NCBI GenBank assembly: GCA_001910725.1
Contig: MJGA01000006.1
Span: 806,001 to 870,000 of the forward strand
Direction of reading: 5' to 3'
Source of the DNA: Phanerodontia chrysosporium
Taxonomy: Eukaryota > Basidiomycota > Agaricomycetes > Polyporales > Phanerochaetaceae
DNA: 64,000 nt
A program made the position numbers and the translations under genes. The notes beneath the pieces were generated by a model that had not been told where the DNA came from, did not search any database, and saw nothing but the letters and a program-made list of their open reading frames with translations. Below are positions 10,811 to 36,438 of this stretch, piece after piece (the first letter of the stretch is position 1; each line of letters begins with the position of its first letter).

Positions 10811-11100
10811 TGTCGGATCTTGGGCGTTTACCGTCCTGATATGGTAGGGCGCATCAGCGCCACCAAGCCCCAGCGTTCCGCATATAGACACCTCTCTCGT
10901 AGCACTGTAGTACATGCGTCAGCACCTCGAATATATGGCCATTATGCTCACTAATATGCAGTAGAATTATTCATCATCTTGTAAAGACGATGACTGTGTA
11001 TTCTGGTCCAGTAAACCCGCTTACATACAGTAGTCCTAGACATGTATATATACCGGCTCTGTAGCACCAGAATAAATCAGTTCAGAGTACATTCTTCACA
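10811..11100 (+). repeat. copia-2 5' LTR
   Basis: 290 bp, starts TGTCGGATC and ends TTCTTCACA. TATATATA at about 11045 is a plausible TATA box near the 3' part of the LTR. Confidence 0.9.
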
Positions 11101-11113
11101 GGTTATGAGCCCC
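11101..11113 (+). promoter_or_regulatory. copia-2 primer-binding site (half-tRNA-iMet type)
   Basis: Reads GGTTATGAGCCCC immediately after the LTR, the same site as in copia-1. It complements the anticodon arm of initiator tRNA-Met, so priming by a cleaved tRNA half is predicted. Confidence 0.8.
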
Positions 11114-12015
11114 GCCCTCTAAGGGCACTCTACCTCACTCGACTCCAACTCCTTTCCATCTGCACACCCAACCTCTAGCGTAATTTCTCGAGGTTATCTC
11201 CTGTATTAGTGTAGCTGCTCAACACAGCGATCAGCACTAACACACGTCGTTTACAGCAGCCCCGACATAGGGCAAACGCGTCAGACAGTCCCTCGTAAGG
11301 ACAGGCGCGGTAGTACACGGGCACATCACTTTACGATCTGGTTCGACGCTGCACTTCAGTGGGCGCGTCGTAGGGGCCTACTCCCCTTGGTAGCAGAAGA
11401 TAGTCGTCGAGCTCTTAAACTCGATCTAGACGTCCTACCAAACTTGCGCAATAGTGGTGTTTCTTGGCCCCCGTATATCTAGCTGTAGATTGTAGCGTGT
11501 ACCTAGTACAGGCTTGTCACATCCCACCCAACTCTATCCGCCTCTCGGCTATTTCGGCTAGCTGGGATCAGCGGCGCACTGAACAGTGTACACCCGTGCA
11601 GACTGGATCGAATCATCGCACCACATCTCTGGACTCCCACCGATCAGCTCGCAGGCGAATCACCTCGTGCTCGTACAGCGATCACACGCTATAGAAATAC
11701 TGCACCCGCACCTCCTTCATCCGTCCTCCAATTCCGAACCAAACCCCGAGTCGTTCCCGTCTATCCACTCTCGTCAAAACTTGACGATCACCCATACGTC
11801 TATTACTACGACCTATCCGAACTCAACGAATTCGTCACCTTCGACCCGACATATTCCATCGGTGATCACGAGAAACCGGGCAAATACGACTTCTTTGAGG
11901 ACTTCTCCAAATCCTTCTATCTCCTTTTCGGTGCAGCAGATTCCTACGAGTACAACGAGCTCTACGTTTATCTTCGCCTCATTTACCATCACGAGCTTCC
12001 ATACTTCTTCTAGTC

Positions 12016-15000
12016 ATGTCATCATCATCCTCAGACCCCTTCAAGGCCTCGGCCTCCTCGATTCCCATGCTCGACGGCACCAACTATAAAAAGTGGGCCG
12101 CGGCGATCCGCGCTTTTCTCCGGTACTCCGGCTGCTGGGCCCTCATTGAGGGTTACACGGCTCCCACGGCTGACACGCCCGCACCGGGTGTAAGCCGTCC
12201 CGCTGACTCGGATGCCACCGGTCAGGCAGCCTGGGACGAAAAGAATCAGAAAGCGATGGGTGTAATCGAGATGTATACCAAAGAGAACCTAAAGCACCTC
12301 ATCGAAGACAAGCGCACTGCCCTCGACATGTGGAACACGCTCAAGTCTGAGTACGAGAAGCCAGGTGCCGTCGGCGCATTCGTCGCCTTCCAGGCCCTGT
12401 TTAACGCTCAGCTTGTTGATACGTCTCCACTCGGGCCGCAGCTTGACGCTCTTCACGAGGCCGCTAGTCAGGTTACCCTCGCCGGTATCGAGATCAAGGA
12501 CCAGCTCCTCGCTCTCCTCATGGTCAATTGCCTGCCGAAGTCTTATCAGACGCTCGCCTCTACCATTCTTGCGGTACACAAGGACGTCAAGGATCTCAAG
12601 CCTAGCGACGTCAAGCCCAAGATCGTCGAGGAAGAGTCTCGCCGAATTGCCAATCGTACCCAGATCTCACGCGTCTCATCGGCTCCAAAGAAGCAAACCA
12701 AGCCGTGTGAGAAGTGCGGTCGGAACAATCACACGACCGAGCAGCATTGGGACAAGAAGCCTTCTACAGGCACTGGCAATTCCGGCAACGGCAACGGCAA
12801 CAACCAGCAGGGGCAGCAGCAGGGTCAAGGGGGGAAAAGACGTGGGAAAGGCAAAGGAAATAGTAACGGACAGAATACCGCTCAGATCACAGTCGCACCG
12901 CTCGAAATTGTAAATGTACCGGATATGGCTAAGAGTTCCGAGGAATCCATCTCTGTTTCTCTTTATGCCAACGGTGTGATCGGCGCGTCGACTGACTGGA
13001 TGGTTGATTCAGGCTGTACCGCACATGTCACCAATCAGAAATCGGATTTCATATCGTACACAGAGTTCCGTACTCCTGGCGCGGCACACACTGCCGGCAA
13101 ACGCCAAACGATTCCGATTCTGGGTGCAGGCACGGTCATACTTCACCACCGGACCGATGACGGTCATAAGCGGTATCTTCTTCTCACAGAAGTTCTGTAC
13201 GTTCCTGACGCAAATATGCGCTTCTTTGCTCCACGCATTCCCGTTCTGAGGGGCCATCATTGGGTGATCAAAGGGTCACGCATGACATTGATGGGAGATA
13301 ACGGTGGAAAAGAGACAGTCCTCGCTTCTGCGCATCTGCGCGAGCTTGAGGGTCTCTATTTCATACGCGCGAATATATTGCACTCTCCACCACTACCACG
13401 GAAAGACACTCCGTTTGTTGTGGCAGCTATCGAGCCTTTTGATCTCTGGCATGAACGCTTTGGCCACGCCGGCAAGAAAGCTATTGAGCACCTGCCCGGC
13501 AATGTGAAAGGTGTGCCTAAACAGCTCAAAGCACCAGCCGACTCGTCTCCGTGCGAGGGCTGTGAACTCGGCAAATCTCGCCGAGATCCCTTTCCGCCAT
13601 CTGACTCGCGCACCGAGCATCCTCTGGACTTGGTGCACATGGACCTTGTCGAGTATCCGTCACTCTCAATTGATGGGTACAAGTACGCGATGACTACCCT
13701 CGACGATCATTCCTCTTTCGGTGTCGCCTGGTACCTTAAACGGAAATCAGACGCCCTCTCGTGCCTTAAGCGGTACAAAGCTTGGGCCGAGACTCAGACC
13801 GAACGGAAGCTCAAATGCATCCGATCGGACCGAGGGGGGAGTTCTTCGGCCGCGACTTCGACGAATTCCTTGCAGAGCATGGCATCGAGCGCCAACAAAG
13901 CGTCGCCAGATCACCACAACAAAACGGACGAGCGGAACGATGGCAGCAGACAATTGCCAATAAGGCTGAGGCTATGCGACATCATGCCGGACTCTCATCA
14001 GGGTTCTGGAAGCTTGCCTCCGAAGCCGCCGTTCACATCTACAATCGGCAACCGCTCCGACGTCTCAAGTGGAAGCCGCCCATTACCGCATGGGATGGCA
14101 CAGTGCCGGACGTTTCATATTTCCGCGTATTTGGCTGTAAAGCCTACGTACACATACACAAGGACGCACGCCAGAATAAGCTGCAGCCTAAGGCTAAAGT
14201 AATGGTGTTTGTCGGCTACGAACCTGGTTCAAAGGGTTACAGGTTCTGGGATAAAAGTAGCCGTTCCATCGTCGTGTCCCGCGATGTGACCTTCGATGAG
14301 AAGTCCTTCCCTAATAAGGAACCACAGGCTAGTCAAGCAGACGAACCTGATGATGCCGCACCTCCTTTCCGGAACCCAACGCCGGAACCGGACATTGATC
14401 CGGAACAAGACCTCCCTGACGTCTTACCCGATAAGGCACCGCATCCGCGCCCTGACAATGCGCTAAGTGATAGCGATAGTGACCTCGAAGATCTGTACCA
14501 AGATCCACCACCTAAGCCACAACCTCAACAGCACCCACCAGAACCAGTCCCACGGGCAGAGCCACAGCCGCCGCCCGTACAACCTCGTTATCCTCGATAT
14601 CCTTCACCTCCCCGCATGGCACGTAGACGACAGCGCTCTTCTCCTTCACCAGAGAGAGCACAGCAACGTCGCGGACATTCATCCCCACGTCGCGAGTTAC
14701 GTCGCCCTGATACTCCAGAGAACCGCGAAGAGCACAGACGTGCCCGCGAGTGGCTCAGAGATCACGGCCCGTTCCAGCCGCAAGCGCCCGCTCCACCGCC
14801 TCCGGAACCCGTTCCCGATCATCCATACCAAAGACCACGGCGCCAGAACGCCGGTCAGCGGAGAGTTCCGGATAATTCATATGGCGATGTTCCACCTACG
14901 GAAGCATGGCGGCAGCAGGAACGAGACATCAGACGTGATCAACGCGAAGCTAGACAGCGCGCCGAGGAGTACCAACAATGGCGTGAGTCTATTCCCATCC

Positions 15001-16673
15001 CCAGCGATGACTCTTCATCGTCGCATGGTGGATCGGATGCAGATGTAGAGACAGATCCCGATCACCCCATGAGCGGCACGCTCTCGGGTTCTTATCGCGA
15101 ACTGCTCATGCATGCCACGCAAGTTGACCCTCAGACCTACAAGGAAGCGATGTCTAGACCTGATGCGAAGCAGTGGGAGATTGCAATGCTTGAGGAATTG
15201 AAATCTCACGAGGAAAACAAGACTTGGATTCTGGTTACACGACCGCGTAATCGACGGATCGTGAAATGCAAATGGGTGTTTGTCATCAAGGCTGACGGCC
15301 GCTACAAAGCACGCCTCGTGGCCAAAGGATTCACTCAGGTACAGGGTATAGACTTTCAGGAAACCTTCTCTCCCGTCGCACGATATGAAGCTATACGCTT
15401 CTTGCTCGCACATGCCGCACTCGAAAATTGGGAAATCGAGGCAATGGATATAAAAACGGCCTTCCTGTATGGCGAGCTCGACGAGGAGATCTACATGGAA
15501 CAACCAGAAGGTTTCGTGGAGAAGGGAAAGGAGCACATGGTGTGCAAGCTGCAGAAGGCAATCTACGGCCTGAAGCAAGCCTCTCGCACCTGGAATCAGA
15601 AGTTACACCAAACTCTGATAGGCATTGGTTTCGAACGTACCCGGTCAGATGCCGGGGTATACGTCTACGAGCAGAAGAAGGGCCACATGATCCTTATCGT
15701 CTACGTCGACGATCTGCTCCCAATGGGTCCGAGCAAATCTGAGATTGATCGCGTCAAGAAGGTTCTCGCAGACAAATTCCAAATGCGGGACCTCGGCCCG
15801 GCGGACACCTTCCTGGGCATGCGCATCACTCGTGATCGCTCGAAGCGGCAACTGGAACTGGATCAGCAGAACTACATCGAGCAGGTCCTCACACGCTTCC
15901 AGATGCACAATGCAAAGCCGCAAAAAACCCCACTGCCTGAAGGGTTACACCTCGAGAAGGCAGAAGATGGCTACAAGGCCAACGCGACGCTACTACATCA
16001 GTACCAGACCATGATCGGTAGCTTGATCTATTGCATGATTGGGTCACGGCCCGACATAGCATACGCCGTCACTCGTCTCTCCCAGTACATGTCCAATCCC
16101 ACACCCACGCACGTTGAGCATGCGAAACATGTCTTGCGATACCTCCGTGCGACAAATGACTTCCGCATCCGTTTCCAGGGTTCCGGTCAATCGGGCCTGA
16201 TTGGTTATTCGGATGCAGACTGGGGTGAGAATCGAGATAACCGACGATCGACTACTGGCTACACGTTCCTCATGGCTGATGCCGCTGTCACATGGGTTTC
16301 CCGGATGCAGCGGACCGTAGCACGCTCCTCGACTGAAGCCGAATACATGGCGCTTTCTGACGCATGTTCGGAGGTTGCCTGGCTGACGTCACTCCAGCGC
16401 GAGATCGGATTCCCACAGAAGGGTCCGGTGCCCATGGTTTCAGACAACCAAGGCGGAATTTTCCTCGCTATCAATCCCGCGCATGATCGTCGCCTCAAGC
16501 ATGTGGACATTCGATATCACTTCATCCGCGAGTTCGTAGAGGACAAACGCGTCGAGATAGTGTACATCTCCACCGACGACATGATCGCCGACATTCTCAC
16601 CAAGCCGCTAGGTGCGAAGAAGCACGAGAAGTTCCGAAAGGCTCTCGGCCTCGTATCTTCCAAGGACTTGTAA
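12016..16673 (+). pseudogene. copia-2 Gag-Pol, frameshifted in integrase
   Basis: Gag starts at 12016. The retroviral-type finger is CEKCGRNNHTTEQH, in which the last ligand is His instead of Cys. The protease motif is WMVDSGCTAHVT. The integrase finger (DLWHERFGHAGKKAI...CEGCELGK) and first catalytic region (DLVHMDLVEY) are in the first frame, which continues to 14202. At the run of six G at 13834-13839 the frame must change to reach EFFGRDFDEFLAEHG and the rest of integrase, RT and RNase H, which read to 16673. A proline-rich spacer precedes RT, whose active site is the canonical YVDD (LIVYVDDLL). RNase H shows SSTEAEYMALS and IADILTKPLG. A one-base loss from the homopolymer, or an assembly error there, explains the break. 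Confidence 0.88.
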
Positions 16674-16684
16674 ACGAGTGGGAG

Positions 16685-16974
16685 TGTCAGATCTTGGGCG
16701 TTTACCGTCCTGATATGGTAGGGCGCATCAGCGCCACCAAGCCCCAGCGTTCCGCATATAGACACCTCTCTCGTAGCACTGTAGTACATGCGTCAGCACC
16801 TCGAATATATGGCCATTATGCTCACTAATATGCAGTAGAATTATTCATCATCTTGTAAAGACGATGACTGTGTATTCTGGTCCAGTAAACCCGCTTACAT
16901 ACAGTAGTCCTAGACATGTATATATACCGGCTCTGTAGCACCAGAATAAATCAGTTCAGAGTACATTCTTCACA
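16685..16974 (+). repeat. copia-2 3' LTR
   Basis: 290 bp, matching the 5' LTR except the fifth base. It abuts the target-site duplication GCTGC and the remainder of DMT-2 exon 1, so it could drive a 5'-truncated transporter transcript. Confidence 0.9.
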
Positions 16975-18720
16975 GCTGCCACGCCCGACGTGCAGTCATT
17001 CCCTCCGGACGCCTGGACGCCTGAAACGTTGACAAATGCATCGGACGCAGCACCTGGCAAACTAAGATATGAGCATGCGCGCCGTATATGGAGTAACTTC
17101 ATGTCTCAAGCTAGAGAAGTCATTCAGGAGAACACTGGAATGCTGCTCGTTGCTCTCGCGGAGGTGTGTGCCATAGCCTGCTGCCGTGTATCGCAACTCA
17201 TTGGTGATATCATCAGGCGTTTTACGCGTCGATGAACCTCGCGGTGAAGGAGCTGAGTGGGATTGACCCTCCAGTGAGCACAATGCAGCTCATCTGGATA
17301 AGGATGGTGCGTATTGCCTAACTTCCTATACGTAGGCTGACCCCTGGCAGCACAGACTATCACCTGGCTCTGCTCCGTATGCTACATGTACATCGCGAAG
17401 ATACCCGAGCCCCTGCTGGGACCTAAAGGCGTGCGCCTGCTCCTTGCATTCCGCGGTTTCTGCGGGTGCGTTCTGTACCCAAGGCAATATGACCGGATCG
17501 TTGACTATATGCGCAGGTTTTTTGGTCTCTTCGGCGTATACTACTCTCTGCAGTACCTCTCTCTCGCCGACGCGACCGTGCTCACATTTCTCGCCCCGAT
17601 TCTCACGACCTTCACTGGTGCTATGTTCCTCGGCGAGAAATTCTCTTGGAAGCAGGTTGCCGCGGGCTGTACGTTCTTGGCATCTACATCCAGGCCTCTC
17701 CACTGACCTCGCATAGTCTGCAGTCTGCTCGGCGTTGTGTTGATCGCGCGGCCTCCCTTCCTCTTCGGCACTGTCGTCACTGTACCGCCTGCAGCTGCGG
17801 ACGCTGATGCAGTGCCGACGGAAAGCTTCTCATCACCCGGAGTCACAGCAGCGGAGCGTCTGAGCGCCGTAGGGTGAGTATCCGTGTCTCACACAGGCGC
17901 TCCTTACTCAAGTTGCATGCCCAGCGTCTCGATTCTTGGTGCCCTCGGCGCGACAGGTGTCTGTCAGTAGGTTTTTCAAACACGTGGGCAACGCTGCTCA
18001 CCCGCCTTTTGCAGACACCATCATCCGCGCCATCGGCACGCGTGCGCACGCCCTGCACAATATCGTCGCGTTCTCGTCGCAGTGTGTCATCGTGTCGACT
18101 GTCGCGTGAGTCCCTCCGCCCCTGAGCGCCATCTTCGTGAGTGCTGACGCAGGCTCATGCAGCATGATCGCAATGCAGACGCCAATCGTCGTTCCAACGA
18201 AGATCGAATGGCTTGCGCTGCTGCTTATGATAGGTTTCAATGGATTCTTTGCTCAGGTAAGGCGCGATCCTTGTAGTTACAGGCACCTGCACATCATCTG
18301 AGTCAATCACGTCTAGCTGTTTATGACCATGGGCCTACAACGCCAGGCTGTCGGTCGCTCAACCATGGCGGTGTACATACAGGTACGCCTGTCGATGACA
18401 TACTGTGCCTTTCCCCTGCCAACCGCACTCCGTAGATTGTGTACGCCATTATCTTCGACCAAGTGTTTTTCCATGCCGCACCGTCGCTGCTGTCCGTCTT
18501 TGGCACGCTCATCATCGTGCTTTCGGCCGTCTATGTGGCGGTGGGTGTACCTCCTGGCAAGATGAGTATGCCACTGACGTTCTGCACGTAGCTGACGAAG
18601 GAGGAGGGTGCGAGCCGTAAAGAGCAGTCGCCCGAGGACGTGGCGCTACAGGAAGGCCTCCTCGCCGCTCAAGAGGACGACGTACAACACGCTCCTGCGA
18701 AGGAACACTCGAGGCCCTAG

Positions 18721-19519: not shown

Positions 19520-19529
19520 AGGAGAAGCT
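19520..19529 (+). promoter_or_regulatory. gypsy-A self-primer-type PBS
   Basis: AGGAGAAGCT begins two bases after the LTR and is the exact reverse complement of AGCTTCTCCT at 19389-19398, the predicted first bases of the element RNA. This is the arrangement of Tf1/sushi-type elements, where the 5' end of the mRNA folds back, is cleaved and primes DNA synthesis. No match to a tRNA 3' end was recognised. Confidence 0.7.
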
Positions 19530-19896
19530 CCCACACGCATCGGCTGGCCTGCCTAAGGCCCAAGCCCAGAATATCGCAGTCACCACGGACAAGCTAGCGT
19601 GCGCCAGTTGCGCACACGTATTCCACAAGAAACAGATCAAGGACAAGCACTGGGGAAAGAACGAACGCGACAGACTTCAGTGGACCAAGTGTCAAGTACA
19701 ACCGTGCCCTTGGAGGTACCTTAACGCAGCACCCGAAGACGAAATCTCTGAAGAAGATCACGAACGACCGACAGAACAGCAAATTAGCAGATTCCCCAGC
19801 ATCGACGAATACGAGAGATACTCCGACGAACAGGAGGCAAGAGCACACGACGAAAGCGAAGAAACACAGTCGTCCACTGACTCCACACAATCCGAC
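19522..19896 (+). other. AUG-free open frame in phase with gypsy-A gag
   Basis: From the TAG at 19519 to the gag ATG the frame is open for 125 codons and contains no ATG in any frame back to the predicted transcript start. It would encode a Cys-containing segment (CASCAHVFHKK, then CQVQPC), followed by an acidic, Ser-rich stretch. It could be a plain leader, or an N-terminal Gag extension started at a near-cognate codon such as CTG at 19549. The sequence is unchanged in gypsy-B. Confidence 0.45.
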
Positions 19897-27588: not shown

Positions 27589-27734
27589 ATGGATCCTCCA
27601 CCACCACCACCTCCCCCTGCTGTCACAGTTTTTCGTCTCAACCCTTAGGGTTAGGGGCAGCAGGTGACAGAAGCGATTACTCCGAACTGTGACATGCAGA
27701 AGCGCTGGAGTGACAGCCCTAGGCTCGGGGCCGG

Positions 27735-27758
27735 TCACGTGATACGGCGGTCACGTGA
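27735..27758 (+). promoter_or_regulatory. Paired TCACGTGA boxes in the gypsy-C LTR
   Basis: Two identical 8-bp palindromes 16 nt apart (start to start), followed by ACACGTG. CACGTG cores are bound by bHLH factors such as Cbf1-type proteins in fungi. A regulatory role is inferred only from motif and position. Confidence 0.4.
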
Positions 27759-28038
27759 TGCGCACACGTGCGGTATCCCAGGGTCACATGGTCGAAGGTC
27801 TAGAAGCAGGCAAGGGTCTGGAAGCGCCGAGACACTCCGGAATGGACTAAAAAGTCCTGGGGGTCTCTGGACAGGTCCGGACAGTGCTGGAACGTTCTGG
27901 AGGTTTCTGGGACATCGTAGGAACATTTAGGAACGTGTAGGAGAATGTAGGAATGCCTGTAGGGCACTAGCCAATAGCGTAGTAGGTATTAGATAGCTAG
28001 GACCCTGAACACCGGTCCCTGGGGACCTGGTGCACATG

Positions 28039-28045
28039 TATATAA
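28039..28045 (+). promoter_or_regulatory. gypsy-C LTR TATA box
   Basis: TATATAA, 33 nt upstream of AGCTTCAATCT, the sequence complementary to the PBS and therefore the likely transcript 5' end. Confidence 0.7.
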
Positions 28046-28222
28046 ACCCTGAGGGCTGGGGGTGCCTCCCCAGCTTCAATCTCATCGCATCTCACCTCTC
28101 TAGCCTCTATACCTCGTCTTCAAGCCTGGCTACACCCTTTGTAGTCCAAGTAAACCTTTGCCAGTGAGTATTGCTGGTTGGTTTGGTGTATAGGCGCTAG
28201 GGCAGCGCATTTTTGTGATAGA

Positions 28223-28233
28223 AGATTGAAGCT
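28223..28233 (+). promoter_or_regulatory. gypsy-C self-primer-type PBS
   Basis: AGATTGAAGCT starts two bases after the LTR and is the exact reverse complement of AGCTTCAATCT at 28072-28082 in R. Same geometry as gypsy-A, with 11 rather than 10 paired bases. It predicts Tf1-like self-priming. Confidence 0.72.
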
Positions 28234-28526
28234 AGCCAACCTACTCCACCTTTGGTGGCCTAGGTTATTGCTTTGGGTTCTGGGGGCTTGTTTGAACAAG
28301 TGCTTTTGCGCTTTGTTCAGTTTTCTGCCGATCCACAGGCGCAAGTGGGCACTATAGTACCTTTTTAGGTACAGACAGGGGAACGTGGTGTAACCCACCT
28401 CAGAGGGCTTTGCCTGCGGACGAGTAACCCCTGTTGTAGTGCTGGACTAAGGGTGTAATACCCTGTCCAACCAGTTTTAGCTGTGTGGCGTGGAAACCCA
28501 CAGTAATACCCCTTTCTCTTCGTTGA

Positions 28527-29342
28527 GGGTTGGCTGGCAGGAAAGCCTTGCGCTTTGCCTGTGTGGAGAAGTTTTCTGGCTTGTGTACACAGGCTGACCC
28601 GTGTTTACTAGTGCCTAAAGCTGCTAGGAACCGTTTTGTCCTTGCTAAGGACGAGAGCTCTGGCAAACCCTTGCTTGAGCGCATCAAGATCTCGAACCTC
28701 CACCGCTTCAAAGACGTTGGGAAGCCGCGCCCTGCGTACAAACCTCGCACTACACCCTACACCCCTGTCCCTGGTCGTCGTGAAAGGCTTGCTCGTGAAG
28801 CAGACTTGAACGACTTCAAGCACCAGCTTCAGCTCGAAGACTATCGCAACGAACAGCGCAAGCGCCGCCTACTCGATCGCATCGCGAACGCCCCTCCCCC
28901 TCTACCCCTCATCGAACGTATTGAACCTCCCCCTACTCCCCCTATCGAAGTCAAACCCATTCCCAAAGACCTTCGCTTTCACACCAACACTCAGGTCCAT
29001 CAGCTGCGCGACTACGGACGAAAGTTCAACGGCGCCCTTAATCACTTGGGTCCGTTCTTTCAGAAGCTAGACGAGCAGCGTTTTCGAGTTGGGTTGACTG
29101 AACACGAGCTCTACATCTTGGGCTTGTTCAAGGAGAGGTTCGATAACATTCGCAAACACCTTCAGACCATCGTCGAGACGAAGGAGTACACCACGAGGGA
29201 GTGGAAGAAGATTTCGAGGGATTTGAAGAAGGCAGGCGCACATAGCTTTGCTGAGCTTAAGCCACGCTTCGCTGAGCATTGCAGGGAGCTGATTCAGGAG
29301 TTGGGTGAAGATTGGTTGTTTTTGGAGAAGAACCTCGATTAG
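28527..29342 (+). CDS. gypsy-C ORF1, upstream of gag, without any AUG
   Basis: Open from just after the TGA at 28524 to the TAG at 29340, 271 codons, without one methionine codon. The whole leader from the predicted transcript start (28072) to the gag ATG (29372) has no ATG in any frame. The product would be basic and Pro-rich in the middle (PPPLPLIERIEPPPTPP), with a helical C-terminal half (LTEHELYILGLFKERFDNIR). A near-cognate start such as TTG at 28530 (G at -3 and G at +4) is plausible. The stop lies 29 nt before the gag ATG. Function unknown. Translation is inferred from ORF length and AUG depletion only. Confidence 0.55.
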   Translation, partial: GLAGRKALRFACVEKFSGLCTQADPCLLVPKAARNRFVLAKDESSGKPLLERIKISNLHRFKDVGKPRPAYKPRTTPYTPVPGRRERLAREADLNDFKHQLQLEDYRNEQRKRRLLDRIANAPPPLPLIERIEPPPTPPIEVKPIPKDLRFHTNTQVHQLRDYGRKFNGALNHLGPFFQKLDEQRFRVGLTEHELYILGLFKERFDNIRKHLQTIVETKEYTTREWKKISRDLKKAGAHSFAELKPRFAEHCRELIQELGEDWLFLEKNLD

Positions 29343-29371
29343 TTTTTGTATCTGCGCATTTTTGAATCAAG

Positions 29372-30952
29372 ATGTCGCTCAATTCAAATCCTGTTGACTT
29401 TGGTTTGCGTTCTGCTTCGAGTTCAAGTGGCATGGACCCTTGGGGAGCGTTAGAACTTGGCTCTATGGCTGAGGGAGGCCCTACCCCAGTTTTGGCCGCT
29501 GCGCCGCTTTCGACCTCTTACGAAGAGTACAGCCAGTCATGGGTACAAGCCGCTCAGGAAGGACTGACTCCTGGTGACTTTAAGGCCCTCGTTGACAGCC
29601 TGGGTAACTGGGTAAAGGCTGAAATAGCTCAAGTAAGGTCGGAAATGGGTTCAGAAGTCCTTCGCTTGAAGGAAGCCCTTCGCAAACGCAAAACCGAGGC
29701 CAAGACACTTCAGGAGCAGATAGACACCCTTGAGCAGACTAGACAGCACTTGTCTGCGCAGATAGCAGAGGCTCAGAACCAAAATCGCGTTTTGCAGAAC
29801 GCTATGCAGGTGCTGAAGCAGGAGAACGAGAGCTTGAAAGTGTTGGTTCAGCAAGGCACTAGTGGAGGCAACATTGGGTTGTCTCAGTCTTTGTTCCCTA
29901 CCATGAAGGAGCCTGACACCTTTAATGGTGATAAGGCTAGCAAGCTGGATGACTGGCTCGAGTCGATGGCACTCTGGTTGCGCCACCGTGGCGTAATGGA
30001 CGACGAAAAGAAGATAGAGACGGCGATGACTTACCTGCGAGGTTCAGCAAAGAAGGTCATGCAAGAGTACTTTGACAAGGTGGCAGACTCAAAGCCCCTT
30101 GGTACTTGGACCAACTTTGTGAACGAACTCCAGAAAGGATTCCAACAGACCGACAAGAAGGACAGGGCAAGGGCAGAGTTTGAGCAGCTTGTCAGCAAGA
30201 AAGGGACGAACGAGAAGACTTTCAATGAGTTTGCCGCTCGCTTCCGTTCGCTGGCTCGCCAAACTGGCTTCTCCAACGAGGAACTGTTGGTCAAAGCCTA
30301 TGCCCATACCCCTCGTGCCGCCGCCGATGTACTGGCAGCCCGTGGTCGTGCTCAGTGGGCTACGACCTGGGATGGTTGGTTGAAGGATGTTCAGGAGATT
30401 CTGCAGGATCAACGTCTCTTGACGGGCACCGTACTCTCTGGACAGCCTCAGTCGTCGAAAGACCCTGACGCTATGGATGTCGACGCCTTGAAGAAGGGCT
30501 CAGCCCAGGGTAAAGGCAAGACAGCCAAAGTTCAGAAGGTTGCCATGTCGTTCGAGGAGGCAAAGAAGAAAGGCTGCTGCGCTCAGTGTGGAGGCAAAGG
30601 CCATATCGCCAAGGAGTGTCCATCGAAGAAGAACAACTCAGGTTCTTCGACGTCGTCGAGTAAAACTACCAATGCACCGGTGGCCAGTTCATCAAAGGCT
30701 TCGTCTTTAAAGGGAAAGGAGAAGGATAAGGGCTCTCGCCACACAAAGAACAGTGTGCGCGAGGTGTACGCCAGCGACTCGGAGAGATTCCAGGAGGTAG
30801 CCTCTGACGAGGAGTCGAGCTCGGATAGCTCAGAAGAAGAAGATACCCCCAAGACCAAGCAAAAGAAGAAGTCGTCTTCGAAGGAGAAGGCGCAGAAGAT
30901 TAACCGCGTGGTGTTCTCAGACGATGAGGATTTTCTGCAGGGACTGATGTAG
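29372..30952 (+). CDS. gypsy-C Gag
   Basis: 526-aa protein beginning at the first ATG of the predicted transcript. A strong coiled coil spans about residues 85-165 (KTLQEQIDTLEQTRQHLSAQ). Then comes a Ty3-type capsid domain (PDTFNGDKASKLDDWLESMA...GTWTNFVNELQKGFQ), a CCHC zinc knuckle (CAQCGGKGHIAKEC) and a Ser/Lys/Glu-rich tail. The ORF is intact. It should form the particle that packages element RNA; with RT missing downstream, the particle would need a polymerase from another copy. Confidence 0.9.
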   Translation: MSLNSNPVDFGLRSASSSSGMDPWGALELGSMAEGGPTPVLAAAPLSTSYEEYSQSWVQAAQEGLTPGDFKALVDSLGNWVKAEIAQVRSEMGSEVLRLKEALRKRKTEAKTLQEQIDTLEQTRQHLSAQIAEAQNQNRVLQNAMQVLKQENESLKVLVQQGTSGGNIGLSQSLFPTMKEPDTFNGDKASKLDDWLESMALWLRHRGVMDDEKKIETAMTYLRGSAKKVMQEYFDKVADSKPLGTWTNFVNELQKGFQQTDKKDRARAEFEQLVSKKGTNEKTFNEFAARFRSLARQTGFSNEELLVKAYAHTPRAAADVLAARGRAQWATTWDGWLKDVQEILQDQRLLTGTVLSGQPQSSKDPDAMDVDALKKGSAQGKGKTAKVQKVAMSFEEAKKKGCCAQCGGKGHIAKECPSKKNNSGSSTSSSKTTNAPVASSSKASSLKGKEKDKGSRHTKNSVREVYASDSERFQEVASDEESSSDSSEEEDTPKTKQKKKSSSKEKAQKINRVVFSDDEDFLQGLM

Positions 30953-31006
30953 AGGTTATGACCTCTGGTCCGTTTTCGATTTCCTTTACCCACTTGACTC
31001 AATTGA

Positions 31007-31363
31007 ACATGTTTTGGAATTGAGGAAGGCCTTCATTTGAGCTTTATCATTCCAGTAACACTGAGTCAGAGTAAGGAAATCAGAGTGCAGACTACCGCGC
31101 TGGTTGATTCAGGGGCCTATGCTGTGTTCATTAGCCATCGCTTCGTCAAGAAGCATAAGCTAAAGACGAACCAGCTGGCCAGGGAGATACGCGTTTACAA
31201 CGCAGATGGCTCCAGGAACAAGTGTGGCAGTATTGAGGAGTATGCTTGGCTCGACGTAGCCGTAGGGGACCATGTCTCCAGACAAGCATACCTCATTACA
31301 GATCTGGGTGGAAAGGACATTTCCTCGGCCTTAGCTGCTCAAAGAGGTCTAGTCAAAAAATAG
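31007..31363 (+). pseudogene. gypsy-C protease remnant
   Basis: Retropepsin N-terminal half with TTALVDSGAYAVFISHRF (catalytic DSG). The frame opens at 31007 without a usable ATG and ends in a stop at 31361. Homology to gypsy-A protease stops at LITDLGGKDI, just before the expected ILG-x-DW motif. Beyond it the reading frame runs into unrelated sequence, so an active protease is unlikely. Confidence 0.75.
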
Positions 31364-32137
31364 ACTGGAATGAGCATGGGCAGCATAAGCAGAACCCGAA
31401 GAACTGATGAACTAGGACTTCGAGGAGGAAAGAGCAGAGCTTAGACTCTAACTGTCGCTTACACCACCCCAGATTGGCCACAGTTTTCGGCAGTTGAACT
31501 GCCAGAAGGGAGGAATCAAGGATTCCAGTGTTGTGCCCCTCAGTTTCGGCTATCTGACAGAACTTTGGAACCTCTCAACTGTTGAGAACCAAAGTAGGGC
31601 GAGTATTACTACTCAGAAGGCCCAGTGTTGTGCCATTTATTGGACGAGTTAGTCAGATAGTGCAGGTCCCTAGGCACCGAGGTACTGGTACCTTTGGGGA
31701 GGGCTCCACAACTTAGCTTCGAAGTACTGAAGCAGAAGTTTTCGGTTGCTTGCCGAGCAAGTGACAGGGCAGTGTCTCTCAGCCTGAAGATGTTTGCAAC
31801 ACCTAGTTGAAGTTAGCATTCAGGGCATAATCCCAGATACTTCAGGGTGTTGAGAGCGACTGCAGCAGTTGGGTCAAAAGGGCTTTTTACCTATATTGGC
31901 TATGCATAGACTCTTGGAGTCAGCCTACACACATTGGAGCTGAACGCACTAGCCTGAGAAGGGGCTGATCCTATGTCCAGGAGGCCATATCCTGAATTGG
32001 GGGTAGATTGCCATAATCGTGGAAACCACATTGAGAAGCCAGAATCTTCCACGATACGAGCCCAAGGCAATCTGGCCATTCAGTGATAAGGGACACTAGC
32101 AAGAGGCTAGCAAGAGGATCAATACAAGCCCAGTTGG
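31364..32137 (+). other. Non-coding segment replacing RT/RNase H in gypsy-C
   Basis: About 770 bp with stops in all frames, in the position of protease end, RT and RNase H. It includes a 13-mer CCAGTGTTGTGCC repeated near 31525 and 31622, GAATTGGGGGTA at 31994-32005 that duplicates the 3' polypurine tract (34077-34088), and a tandem GCTAGCAAGAG just before the integrase ORF. Its origin is unknown; template switching during reverse transcription could have introduced it. Confidence 0.65.
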
Positions 32138-34054
32138 ATGACAGAGTCATCAAGTGTTATGGACCACGAGAAAGGATCAAGAGAGTTCGGGAAGGACTTA
32201 GCGGAATGGCACCTCGAGGACGGGCTACTACTGCACCGAGGCAAGGTGTATGTGCCCAAGGACGACAAGATTAGGGCGGATCTACTCAAGTTACACCACG
32301 ACTTCCCTGGGGCTGGACACCCTGGACGATGGAAGACGTTGGAGTTGCTGTCGCGCAACTACTGGTGGCCAGGAATGTCAGTTTACGTCAAGAAGTACGT
32401 CGCAGGTTGCGAAGTCTGCCAGTCACATAAAAACGTCAACCAGAAGCCTGCTGGCCTGCTACAACCGAACGAGATTCCGTCGGAACCCTGGGAGATAATC
32501 TCATGCGATATGATCACGGACTTGCCTGAGTCGGACGGTTACAACGCTATCTTCGTAGTCGTTTGCCGCTTAACCAAGCGAGCACATTTCCTCCCCATCA
32601 CCAAGGAGTTTTCAGCCAAGGATCTGGGAAATTTGCTCTATGAGCGTATTTGGCCTTTGCACGGCCTACCCAGACAGATCATTTCGGATAGAGGAACGCA
32701 GTTCGCCGCAAAACTCTTCCAGGAATGGTGCAGACTCTTGGGAATCAAGTCAGCAATGACTACAGCGTTTCACCCTCAGGCGGACGGTCAGACGGAGCGA
32801 GTTAATCAGTCATTGGAGCAGTATCTGCGCTGCTACACAAGCTTCAGGCAGGACGACTGGGCGTACCTTTTGCCCTCTGCCGAGTTTGCGTACAATAACC
32901 AGGCGCATGAAAGCACCAAGAACTCGCCATTCTTCGTCGAATATGGCCGTCATCCACGCATGTTCCCAGAGCAGGACCGTGTTACAAGGTTGTCAGAACT
33001 GGACGACTGGACGAAGCTTAGACAGGAGGCCCAAGATCAGGCGAAAGCCGCGCTCGTGCTGGCTGCAGAGCGAATGAAGTGGTACTACGACCAGGGTAAA
33101 TCAGAACCCTTGTTCAAGGTCGGAGACCGTGTTTGGCTTGACGCAAAGGATCTGAACCTTCGGGTTCCCTCCAAGAAACTGGCACCAAAGCGAGTAGGCC
33201 CTTACGAGATCGTAGAGCAGCTGGGACCGGTCACCTTCAAGCTGAAGTTACCAGTCCATGTGAAGATTCACCCGGTCTTCCACGCAAGCAAGCTCACGAA
33301 GCACGTCGAGGATGAGGTCGCCAATCGCACGCGCAAACCCCTACCACCCATTCGTGTGGGTGATGACGAGGAGTACGAGGTCGAGCAGATCGTAGATGCA
33401 CAGCCAGACTCTAAAGGCCGTGTTATGTACCGAGTACGGTGGAGAGGCTACGATGAGCATAGCGACACATGGGAATACTTGCCCAATCTCAAGCACGCTA
33501 TGGCGAAGGTCAAACAATTCCACAAGAAATACCCAGATGCGCCAAAGGCAATTTCCCTTCTGCAACGCCACCACGACGAGGAGGATGAGTTTTTCGTGCG
33601 CGAACTCGCGCTACTCCAATCTTGGGGAGCAGACGACCAGTTCGAGGTCGAGCTCATGAACAAGGATGCAAAACTTCCCTCACGTGGCTCGCCAGAAAGC
33701 GCAGGGTTGGATCTTTTCATCACGGAAGACCTTACGCTCAAGCCCCATGATCGCAAGCTAGCGCCAACTGGCCTTCGAATGTGTACCCCACCAGGTACCT
33801 ACGCTCGAGTCGCACCACGGAGTGGCCTTAGCCTCGGAGGCATCGACATAGGAGCAGGCGTTATTGACCGAGATTATCGAGGAGAGCTCAAAATTCTACT
33901 CATCAACAACTCGCCCGACACCTTTACATTCCACAAGGGTGATCGTGTCGCTCAACTCGTGCTCGAAAGAATCTCCTACGCCGAACCAACTCCGGTTTCT
34001 CGCCTCGACTCAACCATTCGCAGCAGCGATGGTTTTGGCTCCACTGGTATTTAG
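32138..34054 (+). CDS. gypsy-C integrase-chromodomain-dUTPase protein
   Basis: 638-aa ORF with its own ATG. The integrase finger is HHDFPGAGHPGRWK...CEVCQSH. The DDE core includes SCDMITDLPESDGYNA, SDRGTQFAAKLFQE and QADGQTERVNQSLEQYL. A GPY/F-type module (KLAPKRVGPYEIVEQ) and a chromodomain (EYEVEQIVDAQPDSKGRVMY...) follow. A complete dUTPase then forms the C-terminus (nt about 33663-34052): AGLDLF, PRSGLS, GVIDRDYRGEL, GDRVAQLVLERI and SSDGFGSTG. A dUTPase after the chromodomain is an unusual place. All catalytic residues seen are intact, so the protein could act in cis for integration if cDNA is made by another copy. Confidence 0.9.
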   Translation: MTESSSVMDHEKGSREFGKDLAEWHLEDGLLLHRGKVYVPKDDKIRADLLKLHHDFPGAGHPGRWKTLELLSRNYWWPGMSVYVKKYVAGCEVCQSHKNVNQKPAGLLQPNEIPSEPWEIISCDMITDLPESDGYNAIFVVVCRLTKRAHFLPITKEFSAKDLGNLLYERIWPLHGLPRQIISDRGTQFAAKLFQEWCRLLGIKSAMTTAFHPQADGQTERVNQSLEQYLRCYTSFRQDDWAYLLPSAEFAYNNQAHESTKNSPFFVEYGRHPRMFPEQDRVTRLSELDDWTKLRQEAQDQAKAALVLAAERMKWYYDQGKSEPLFKVGDRVWLDAKDLNLRVPSKKLAPKRVGPYEIVEQLGPVTFKLKLPVHVKIHPVFHASKLTKHVEDEVANRTRKPLPPIRVGDDEEYEVEQIVDAQPDSKGRVMYRVRWRGYDEHSDTWEYLPNLKHAMAKVKQFHKKYPDAPKAISLLQRHHDEEDEFFVRELALLQSWGADDQFEVELMNKDAKLPSRGSPESAGLDLFITEDLTLKPHDRKLAPTGLRMCTPPGTYARVAPRSGLSLGGIDIGAGVIDRDYRGELKILLINNSPDTFTFHKGDRVAQLVLERISYAEPTPVSRLDSTIRSSDGFGSTGI

Positions 34055-34089
34055 GCTTCACCAGGAGGTTCAGCTAGAATTGGGGGTAA

Positions 34090-34689
34090 TGTCACAGTTT
34101 TTCGTCTCAACCCTTAGGGTTAGGGGCAGCAGGTGACAGAAGCGATTACTCCGAACTGTGACATGCAGAAGCGCTGGAGTGACAGCCCTAGGCTCGGGGC
34201 CGGTCACGTGATACGGCGGTCACGTGATGCGCACACGTGCGGTATCCCAGGGTCACATGGTCGAAGGTCTAGAAGCAGGCAAGGGTCTGGAAGCGCCGAG
34301 ACACTCCGGAATGGACTAAAAAGTCCTGGGGGTCTCTGGACAGGTCCGGACAGTGCTGGAACGTTCTGGAGGTTTCTGGGACATCGTAGGAACATTTAGG
34401 AACGTGTAGGAGAATGTAGGAATGCCTGTAGGGCACTAGCCAATAGCGTAGTAGGTATTAGATAGCTAGGACCCTGAACACCGGTCCCTGGGGACCTGGT
34501 GCACATGTATATAAACCCTGAGGGCTGGGGGTGCCTCCCCAGCTTCAATCTCATCGCATCTCACCTCTCTAGCCTCTATACCTCGTCTTCAAGCCTGGCT
34601 ACACCCTTTGTAGTCCAAGTAAACCTTTGCCAGTGAGTATTGCTGGTTGGTTTGGTGTATAGGCGCTAGGGCAGCGCATTTTTGTGATA
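34090..34689 (+). repeat. gypsy-C 3' LTR
   Basis: 600 bp, identical by eye to the 5' LTR, preceded by the purine tract GAATTGGGGGTAA and followed by the target-site duplication CCTGC. Confidence 0.93.
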
Positions 34690-36438
34690 CCTGCTGGCTC
34701 GACGAACACACTGTTGCGCGAGAAATTACACACTGCAGTCGATCAAATCGAAAGACTCACTGTTGTGGTGAGGCAGCTCACGGAAGAGCTGAGGGACGAG
34801 CGGAGCAAGAACCTGCAGCGCCTGCAGTACCTGTTGATCAAGGTCAAGGAGCTCGAGGCTCAAGACAGCAGCCTGAAGGCGCAGGTCAAAGGCATTAGCA
34901 ACTTCCTTGAACTCGATACCCTCATGGTTAACGGACCCGAGGATGGACCACACACACTGCAAACAGCCCTGCCGCCCGGGGCTCAAGACGAGACTCCCAG
35001 GGGTACCGCGACTAATGGCGCTACACCGCCATGCGCACAGGGGGATTCACGGCTGGCCGCCCCGCCGGAGATTGCTGCAGAGGCTGCGAAGTTGGAGATG
35101 AGCAGGAAAGCGGTCCGAAGCAAACCCTTTCAGGTACGCACCTCACAATACTTGTAGATGCGCCTTGTTGTATGCGCCCTCTGATCGTCATTCCATCTAG
35201 CATATGCTTTCAAAAGTGTTCGCTAAGCTGATGGGTGTCTCCGACACAACAGTGAAGCACTTACCTCTCTTTCCCGAGGACGAAGCGCAGTGGCCGACTG
35301 ACCCTCAGACCCAGAAGAAGAGGATGCGGTTTCGCTGGAGCGACCCTGATCATCTTGATAACCAGAGAAATCTCGCAGAGGTCTACACATACCTGCAAAC
35401 TCACGGTGCCATTATTCACCCCGAGGCCGCCATCTGCCTAACTCAGGTCTTGCCAGAGCATCTAGAAATCGAAGTACACGATAAGTTCGGGAAAATGGTC
35501 GAAGCAATTAAGCGTAAGGCACGGAACAAGCGAAAGGAGGAAGAGAAGAAGCAAAAGAAGGCACAGCAAGAGCGTACCCGTCGGTCACGGTCTGCCGTAG
35601 CTCAGCCAGACTCGCAACAGCAAGAAGGTGATGTAGTGGCGGACGACGAAGGCGGAGGAGGCATAGAGGAGGAGGACGAACCTGTTTCTGAAGACGATGA
35701 GGCACGCAACGTTAAGAACGCTCGTGTCAAATGGGTACGGGCCCTGATCTTGCGATGCTATCTTGCACGTATCTTACCCCTCCTGCAGCTTCTTGAACAA
35801 CGTATCCGCAAGCGGGCATTACTGCCTGAGTATCAAGATCGGAAATATGACGGAGCGTTCACACTCACCGCTATGAGCGAGGTCGAGGAGGTTCCTGCAA
35901 CTTCGACCACAGCCCGAAAGTTCCGACGTCGTGCACCTGACTATCGGAGTGACGAAGTGAGTGTGTCATCAATTGAATAGTTCGAGACTCACTCCGCTCG
36001 TAGCTTCTCAAGCTGTATGCCGATATCGATCGCATGAACGACCCGGATCCCACCAAGGCCAAGCCGCACGTTGAGCGCATTGTTGGAGATGTCAAGAAAG
36101 GCTTTGCCCCTCCCTCGACGAAGCGTGCAGCGAACCGTATCAGGCTATGGATGGTTCGTCCCGAGTTGATCGAAACGAAGTTAGCAGAATGGGGGCGAAA
36201 TCGTGTTGCGGCAAACGGCACGGCATGGGGTGACGAAGAAGATCCCGAGGTCGTTGAAGAGCGTGAGATTGCCAAAAAGGCCGTGGTGAACACCAGAAAA
36301 CAAGCCACGACCACAGCTCACCTTATAGTCGACCATAGCGAAGTTGAGAAGCAGAGGCGTCTCGGAGAGCAAGCTCTAGGTGGTATAGATGTTAACGATC
36401 TGTTCGAGATGCCGTCGTGAAGTAGCATGACGTGTACC

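Follow-up and report, generated by a model that had tools for sequence, protein, structure and literature searches.

We found that gypsy-C, a retrotransposon lying in a stretch of 64,000 nucleotides of the Phanerodontia chrysosporium genome (contig MJGA01000006.1, positions 806,001 to 870,000; here called the window, in which all coordinates are counted), is probably a self-priming chromodomain element that expresses a protein encoded ahead of gag (ORF1) from an alternatively spliced RNA, the start codon of which would be made at the splice junction. In the mechanism that we propose on the basis of sequence comparison, the unspliced RNA, having no AUG for 1300 nt, would let scanning ribosomes reach gag and, since it keeps the primer-binding site, could act as a template for reverse transcription. 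A splice between 28163 and 28612 would join ...GCCA to TGCC..., producing an ORF1 AUG that is present in neither exon, and would remove the primer-binding site; the spliced RNA would then be a message for ORF1 alone. From these patterns we infer the splicing itself, its partial extent, and the translation of gag by scanning. The features of the element are given in Table 1, where a slash within a sequence, as in the text, marks a predicted splice boundary.

Table 1. Features of gypsy-C and its leader in the window
Feature	Position	Strand	Basis or remark
Target duplication CCTGC, 5 bp	27616-27620 and 34690-34694		Flanks gypsy-C; read from sequence
Window copy of gypsy-C	27621-34689	+	LTR element
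5' LTR, 600 bp	27621..28220	+	Limits from LTR matches
TATA-like box TATATAAA	28039..28046	+	ca. 30 nt 5' of the inferred RNA 5' end; sequence
Self-primer, first 11 nt of the RNA, AGCTTCAATCT	28072..28082	+	Perfectly complementary to 28223-28233
Predicted exon 1, AUG-free, within the LTR, ending ...TTTGCCA	28072..28163	+	Inferred 5' end; donor
Predicted splice donor A/GTGAGT (GCCA/GTGAGT)	28164..28169	+	A/GTRAGT in 66/66 aligned rows
Predicted 448-nt intron, including the primer-binding site	28164..28611	+	Donor, branch-site and acceptor consensus
Primer-binding site AGATTGAAGCT, Tf1-like, 2 nt after the LTR	28223..28233	+	Complementarity; alignment
5' part of the 271-codon ORF, most likely noncoding (intron)	28527..28610	+	No codon-position signature
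Predicted branch site GCTGAC	28593..28598	+	One of three branch-like sites in 28160-28640
Predicted splice acceptor TTACTAG, directly 5' of the start-codon TG	28605..28611	+	YAG/TG in 63/66 rows
Predicted exon 2, ORF1 coding: (A)TG CCT AAA ... TAG, 243 codons, no other Met	28612..29342	+	
gag, first AUG of the unspliced RNA	29372..30952	+	Pfam Retrotrans_gag, 4.3e-8
Protease part of broken pol	31007..31363	+	Pfam
Stretch not matching the longer copies (which have ca. 1.6 kb of pol here)	31374..31958	+	Copy comparison, Pfam
Remaining pol: integrase, chromodomain, C-terminal dUTPase	32111..34054	+	Pfam
3' LTR, 600 bp	34090..34689	+	LTR matches

Architecture and genomic copies of gypsy-C

The LTRs, domain order and chromodomain identify gypsy-C as a chromodomain Ty3/gypsy LTR retrotransposon (chromovirus). 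The window copy has gag, part of the protease, the integrase, the chromodomain and a C-terminal dUTPase and is without a reverse transcriptase as judged by Pfam. Five of six further full-length copies are of a longer form of ca. 8.1 kb, and the sixth (L080) is short like the window copy. Among the longer copies, pol is a single ORF of 1385 codons in L081, L082, and L084 and of 1274 codons in L079, and it is split in L083; the L081 ORF encodes protease, reverse transcriptase (RVT_1, 1.8e-34), RNase H, integrase, Chromo, and dUTPase domains (Pfam). All six carry the 271-codon, Met-free ORF1. Given that the form without reverse transcriptase is found in at least two places (the window, at 31374-31958, and L080), it seems to move as a nonautonomous variant. 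A search of 27600-34700 against Rfam gave no match.

Copies were compared in an alignment of 66 rows, that is, the window row and the 65 loci that were left from 78 fetched once 7 duplicates had been dropped, together with 6 loci that gave shorter matches only. The window is present twice (as W and as L013), so that the 56 rows that we call young (at least 97.5% identical) represent 55 places. The remaining 10 rows are old or diverged, the most diverged being L062 (BLAST identity of 78.5%), a dead copy that contains 7 AUGs. Further near-identical copies of gypsy-C, listed beyond the 78 fetched loci, were left out of the alignment.

A leader without AUG

An earlier note on this DNA had claimed that there is no ATG on the sense strand from the RNA 5' end to gag, and this was borne out, with none at all in 28037-29371. 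The last ATG before that of gag (29372), at 28036, lies 5' of the predicted transcript, which starts at 28072, and the resulting ATG-free run of 1336 nt is the longest of the window on either strand, the runners-up on the same strand measuring 911 and 583 nt. The number of ATGs expected in 28072-29371 is 18.9 from base composition, near the "about 20" of the earlier note, which is the looser figure, given that dinucleotides lower the expectation to 10.3. No depletion was found in gag (11 ATGs versus 9.4 expected) or in the pol gene of gypsy-B, another element of the window (54 versus 44.9 expected). When synonymous codons of the ORF1 exon were shuffled with the protein kept, 2.45 out-of-frame ATGs were expected and 4% of the shuffles had none; the total absence of Met from the ORF1 protein is the stronger signal.

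From the transcript start to gag, the leader is AUG-free in 54 of the 56 young rows versus 1 of the 10 diverged ones, which have up to 7 AUGs and some of which are also frameshifted or partly deleted. Thus, copies that moved recently have retained the lack of AUG, and decaying ones lose it. These counts, along with the Met depletion among close relatives of ORF1 (see below), support the selection against AUG that had been proposed earlier, and the AUG-free leader likewise suggests that the unspliced RNA can be scanned as far as gag. In six decayed copies (L042, L047, L050, L059, L060, and L063), new ATGs have appeared at common sites, for instance, 28420 and 28651, where the window reads ACG; they are probably C-to-T changes at CpG that were inherited within older lineages.

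ORF1 is a gene

The ATG-less ORF of 271 codons at 28527-29342 is real, and ORF1 is under purifying selection among the young copies. From 28614 to the stop codon, the distinct substitutions in the 56 young rows are distributed 26/15/61 over codon positions 1/2/3, and the dN/dS ratio, obtained by simple site counts on segregating changes with the majority base as the reference, was 0.22 in young rows and 0.39 in old rows, while the shifted frames gave 1.02 and 1.60. Among the matches listed in three protein searches, one of which scored the best 7998 candidates, ORF1 belongs to a family of 36 members including gypsy-C itself, some of them named from Obba rivulosa and Postia/Rhodonia placenta. 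The low dN/dS ratio and the at least 35 other related database proteins support the proposal, also made earlier, that a genuine protein is produced. One Rhodonia gene model (P0027) continues from ORF1 into a Ty3-type capsid domain, indicating that ORF1 is near gag there too.

With Pfam, the window ORF1 matched no family at an E value of 1e-3, nor was any curated cutoff reached, and 14 of its relatives gave scattered weak matches only (the best, in one member, to TolA_bind_tri, 2.3e-4). A sequence search of the PDB likewise returned weak matches, the best two of which were synthetic helical proteins (E values of 0.0011 and 0.0013). The AlphaFold model is mostly helical (mean pLDDT of 76 and pTM of 0.47, with most of the first 27 residues below 50), and Foldseek found no match to it at an E value of 0.001 or better in the PDB or viral sets. 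Our guess would be a helical, nonenzymatic protein that acts with Gag or RNA.

In 11 of the 66 aligned rows (L050, L051, L052, L053, L054, L055, L057, L059, L060, L061, and L078), the predicted ORF1 ends at codons 142 to 152. Eight of these are 98 to 99.7% identical to the window and AUG-free and therefore look like a recently spread group without an intact ORF1. Such loss of ORF1 in cis counts against the splice model. Among the 14 young rows that do not reach 240 ORF1 codons, 8 have the end at codons 142 to 152, suggesting that ORF1 can be supplied in trans.

A proposed start codon at a predicted splice junction

The start of the protein had been placed in the earlier note at TTG 28530, and here our results point elsewhere. 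There is no coding signature in 28527-28610, where the substitutions by codon position (3/2/4 in young and 8/12/9 in old rows, small numbers) differ from the 26/15/61 of the conserved part. The conserved protein begins at codon 28611-28613, which is GTG in the DNA. At this position, a motif count gave Met-Pro in 29 of the 36 family members, Val-Pro in 4 (gypsy-C itself, two Obba rivulosa models named "partial," and P0011) and neither motif in 3, the column match having been confirmed in the alignment for 14 of the 36. The residues upstream of the Val differ (QADPCLL-V in gypsy-C, LP-V in P0005, and MHKLTSFSL-V in P0011), and GTG 28611, with C at -3 and C at +4, is in a poor context for initiation.

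Predicted splice signals fall exactly on this codon. The predicted intron ends in GCTGAC...TTTACTAG/TG, and in a simple scan of 28050-28640 the best donor score was that of GTGAGT at 28164. The predicted junction, ...TTTGCC-A/TG-CCT-AAA, would turn GTG 28611 into ATG (MPKAARNRFVLAK, where relatives read MPPHRRPRFVLAK and MPRRSSKFVIAK), giving an in-frame AUG with G at -3 at the position of the Met of the family. A spliced upstream exon with an AUG had been named in the earlier note as something that would speak against its reading; no exon has an AUG, but the predicted splice joins A to TG.

These signals are conserved among the copies. The donor varies only to GTAAGT (L046 and L062), and the branch site is GCTGAC or ACTGAC in all aligned rows except L040, in which it is deleted. 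Among the young rows 55 of 56, and among the old ones 8 of 10, have the YAG/TG acceptor, and in the same proportions (55/56 and 8/10) no AUG precedes the junction AUG in the predicted spliced RNA. Read from this AUG, the ORF reaches 240 codons or more in 42 of the 56 young rows and in 1 of the 10 old ones. L062, for all its divergence, keeps every splice signal, with changes that stay within the consensus (GTAAGT, ACTGAC, and CCTAG). By chance figures worked out after the signals had been seen, 9 of the 2076 GTGs on both strands of the window, GTG 28611 included, lie on a YAG/TG acceptor with a branch site, and A/GTRAGT donors number 24 in 128 kb, that is, 0.10 expected per 540 nt. Two points speak against the model: an intron of 448 nt is long for a basidiomycete, and no spliced copy of gypsy-C reinserted in the genome was found, allowing up to 3 mismatches.

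Putative self-priming and the predicted fold of the leader

The 11-nt match between the self-primer and the primer-binding site is the longest complementarity found and is intact in 60 of the 66 aligned rows. It is the reason for placing the RNA 5' end at 28072, and it supports the transcript start predicted in the earlier note. Given this inferred 5' end, the beginning of the RNA is complementary to the primer-binding site as in Tf1, and in Tf1-type elements the primer comes from an RNase H cut after base 11. As the primer-binding site is inside the predicted intron, a spliced RNA would lose it and could not prime its own reverse transcription.

The leader sequence 28072-28260 folds better than 200 of 200 shuffles (z, -4.28). 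In the minimum free energy fold, the RNA 5' end pairs with the primer-binding site, and the donor is in a predicted hairpin at 28160-28178. Over the aligned rows, no pairs were changed on both sides, and pairing (98.6%) was no higher than in letter shuffles, so that the fold of the leader is to be taken as a prediction and its donor hairpin as a product of the energy calculation. A tentative extension of the model, on the doubtful side in our estimation, is that the structured leader may act as a switch, with a logic that would be common to a clade of mushroom retrotransposons and would force the pre-gag protein to be free of internal Met. In one state, the 5' end would be folded on the primer-binding site and the donor hidden in the hairpin, leaving an AUG-free RNA as genome and gag-pol message; in the other, the donor would be used, the ORF1 start codon made, and the priming site destroyed.

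Methionine avoidance among the relatives of ORF1

In the tree of the 36 proteins, the root of which serves for drawing only, a branch with a support of 100/100 separates the 12 rows nearest gypsy-C from the rest. These 12 contain 3 internal Mets in 2750 residues versus 72 in 5156 for the other 24 rows, although the group was drawn after the Met counts had been seen and internal Met is likewise absent from P0031, which lies outside it. The Met contents of the gag and remaining pol of the window copy are 2.5% and 1.7%, respectively. Avoidance of AUG thus seems to belong to a clade and not to one element.

Within this near clade, Met and Val alternate at the start position between close relatives (P0001/P0002; P0004 versus P0005 and P0007), and the rows known to be DNA (this genome and the two "partial" Obba rivulosa models) all three have Val. 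Most simply, the near-clade rows with Met would derive from RNA. The other branch includes 11 Postia/Rhodonia gene models that begin with Met and also contain internal ones; as they come from genome contigs, a genomic ATG is likely there. For the DNA of the ORF1 relatives, no match was confirmed in viral_contigs or genome_contigs, and none was found in plasmids.

Alternative explanations

The lack of AUG would be accounted for equally well by the main alternative, in which a few ribosomes initiate at a near-cognate codon (GUG 28611 or UUG 28530) of the unspliced RNA and the rest scan through to gag, since such leaky scanning also requires an AUG-free leader and a Met-free ORF1. There is a precedent in the pararetrovirus rice tungro bacilliform virus (RTBV), with its AUU start and AUG-free ORFs (PMC5902531, available part), conserved near-cognate starts have been reported in fungi, Agaricomycetes included (PMC5487733, available part), and UUG 28530 has G at both -3 and +4. 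Nevertheless, we consider this route unlikely: the codon that matches the family start, GUG 28611, has C at both of these positions, the sequence that follows UUG 28530 has no coding signature (in small numbers) and encodes residues that vary between relatives, and the splice signals lying exactly on codon 28611 would be left unexplained. Splicing is preferred because its predicted signals match the position of the start codon to the nucleotide, have been retained by all but a few copies, and provide a good initiation context versus the poor one of the unspliced RNA.

Splicing could also be real and mainly regulatory, an inefficient leader intron that removes the primer-binding site or draws host silencing, with translation of ORF1 being secondary. 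The primer-binding site does lie within the predicted intron, inefficiently spliced introns feed an RNAi pathway in Cryptococcus, and a cryptic Tf2 intron has been connected with silencing in mutants of fission yeast (both from PMC7175516, available part); however, purifying selection on ORF1 and its Met-free relatives call for a translated product, which makes this reading very improbable. We give hardly any credence to ORF1 being a decaying relic that misses ATGs by chance or composition. A number of copies do have frameshifts or stops, and the window copy is without reverse transcriptase, but a dN/dS ratio of 0.22 with a third-position excess, the appearance of ATGs as copies decay, and the Met depletion of a 12-row clade all go against it. 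Chance or composition as the cause of the AUG lack was rejected from the codon-position pattern, the shuffles, and the young-versus-old counts.

If the junction-made AUG is correct, a single retroelement RNA would be genome and capsid message when unspliced and message for an accessory protein when spliced, which would account for both the 1.3-kb AUG desert and the Met-free protein. There would then also be a reason for gene finders to overlook a conserved gene or cut it short, as in the two Obba models named "partial." ORF1 also adds an uncharacterized family of pre-gag proteins to the known parts of fungal retrotransposons.

Comparison with known systems

In retroviruses, the unspliced RNA is the genome and the gag-pol mRNA, and a spliced subgenomic mRNA makes another protein; gypsy-C differs in that the extra gene comes before gag and a predicted intron interrupts its start codon. 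Our searches of the open-licence literature showed no described case of an LTR element with a splice-made AUG or with an intron before gag. Ogre, a Ty3/gypsy element of a different (plant) lineage, is reportedly subject to partial splicing, going by the title of a cited paper. Like gypsy-C, it has an ORF between LTR and gag (550 codons, of unknown function), and according to the available part of the source (PMC1142308), as of 2005 an intron ahead of gag had yet to be reported for any LTR retroelement, including Ogre.

The statement of the earlier note that no fungal LTR element with an AUG-less pre-gag protein has been described needs trimming, given that ORF I of RTBV (Caulimoviridae) starts at AUU (PMC5902531). 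RTBV resembles gypsy-C in having an upstream ORF without an AUG start and ORFs free of AUG ahead of the one for the main polyprotein, and in its leaky scanning ribosomes pass ORFs that have no internal AUG; the corresponding feature of gypsy-C, no internal AUG before the next ORF, was found in 54 of the 56 young rows. RTBV also has a spliced RNA for a further protein, but its splice fuses a leader uORF to ORF IV, and the part of PMC5902531 available, on which all these points are based, describes no junction-made AUG.

Tf1 and Tf2 of Schizosaccharomyces are, like gypsy-C, Ty3/gypsy elements in which the first 11 nt of the RNA are complementary to the primer-binding site, and self-priming has been proposed for Tcn1 of Cryptococcus (PMC7175516, available part). 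In contrast to such elements, gypsy-C has a dUTPase, the pre-gag ORF1, and a leader intron that is predicted to span the primer-binding site. PosPlaTy3-4 of Postia placenta (Novikova et al. 2010), compared here by description, is also a polypore chromodomain gypsy element with a dUTPase at the C terminus of Pol, and related ORF1 proteins are named from Postia/Rhodonia. Its figure key includes an "add. ORF" of unknown function, for which the available part of the paper describes no start-codon mechanism (PMC2864245).

Other elements in the window

A copia-type element (ca. 10812-16977) has a second AUG-free leader, at 11106-12015, preceded by one ATG at 11105. Within it, an ATG-free ORF of 168 codons (11507-12013) ends 2 nt before the gag-pol ATG, and three diverged copies, two of them decayed, show a third-position excess, with 10/9/28, 19/15/28, and 23/22/46 substitutions over the codon positions of this ORF. 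A scan for splice signals found no clear split-AUG splice in this leader. In gypsy-B, an open stretch of 125 codons in the gag frame (19522-19896) precedes the first ATG of that frame (19897) and includes a Cys-rich segment (CASC...CQVQPC), and since an 85% copy differs by 12/13/28 substitutions over the codon positions, this extension appears to be coded without an AUG.
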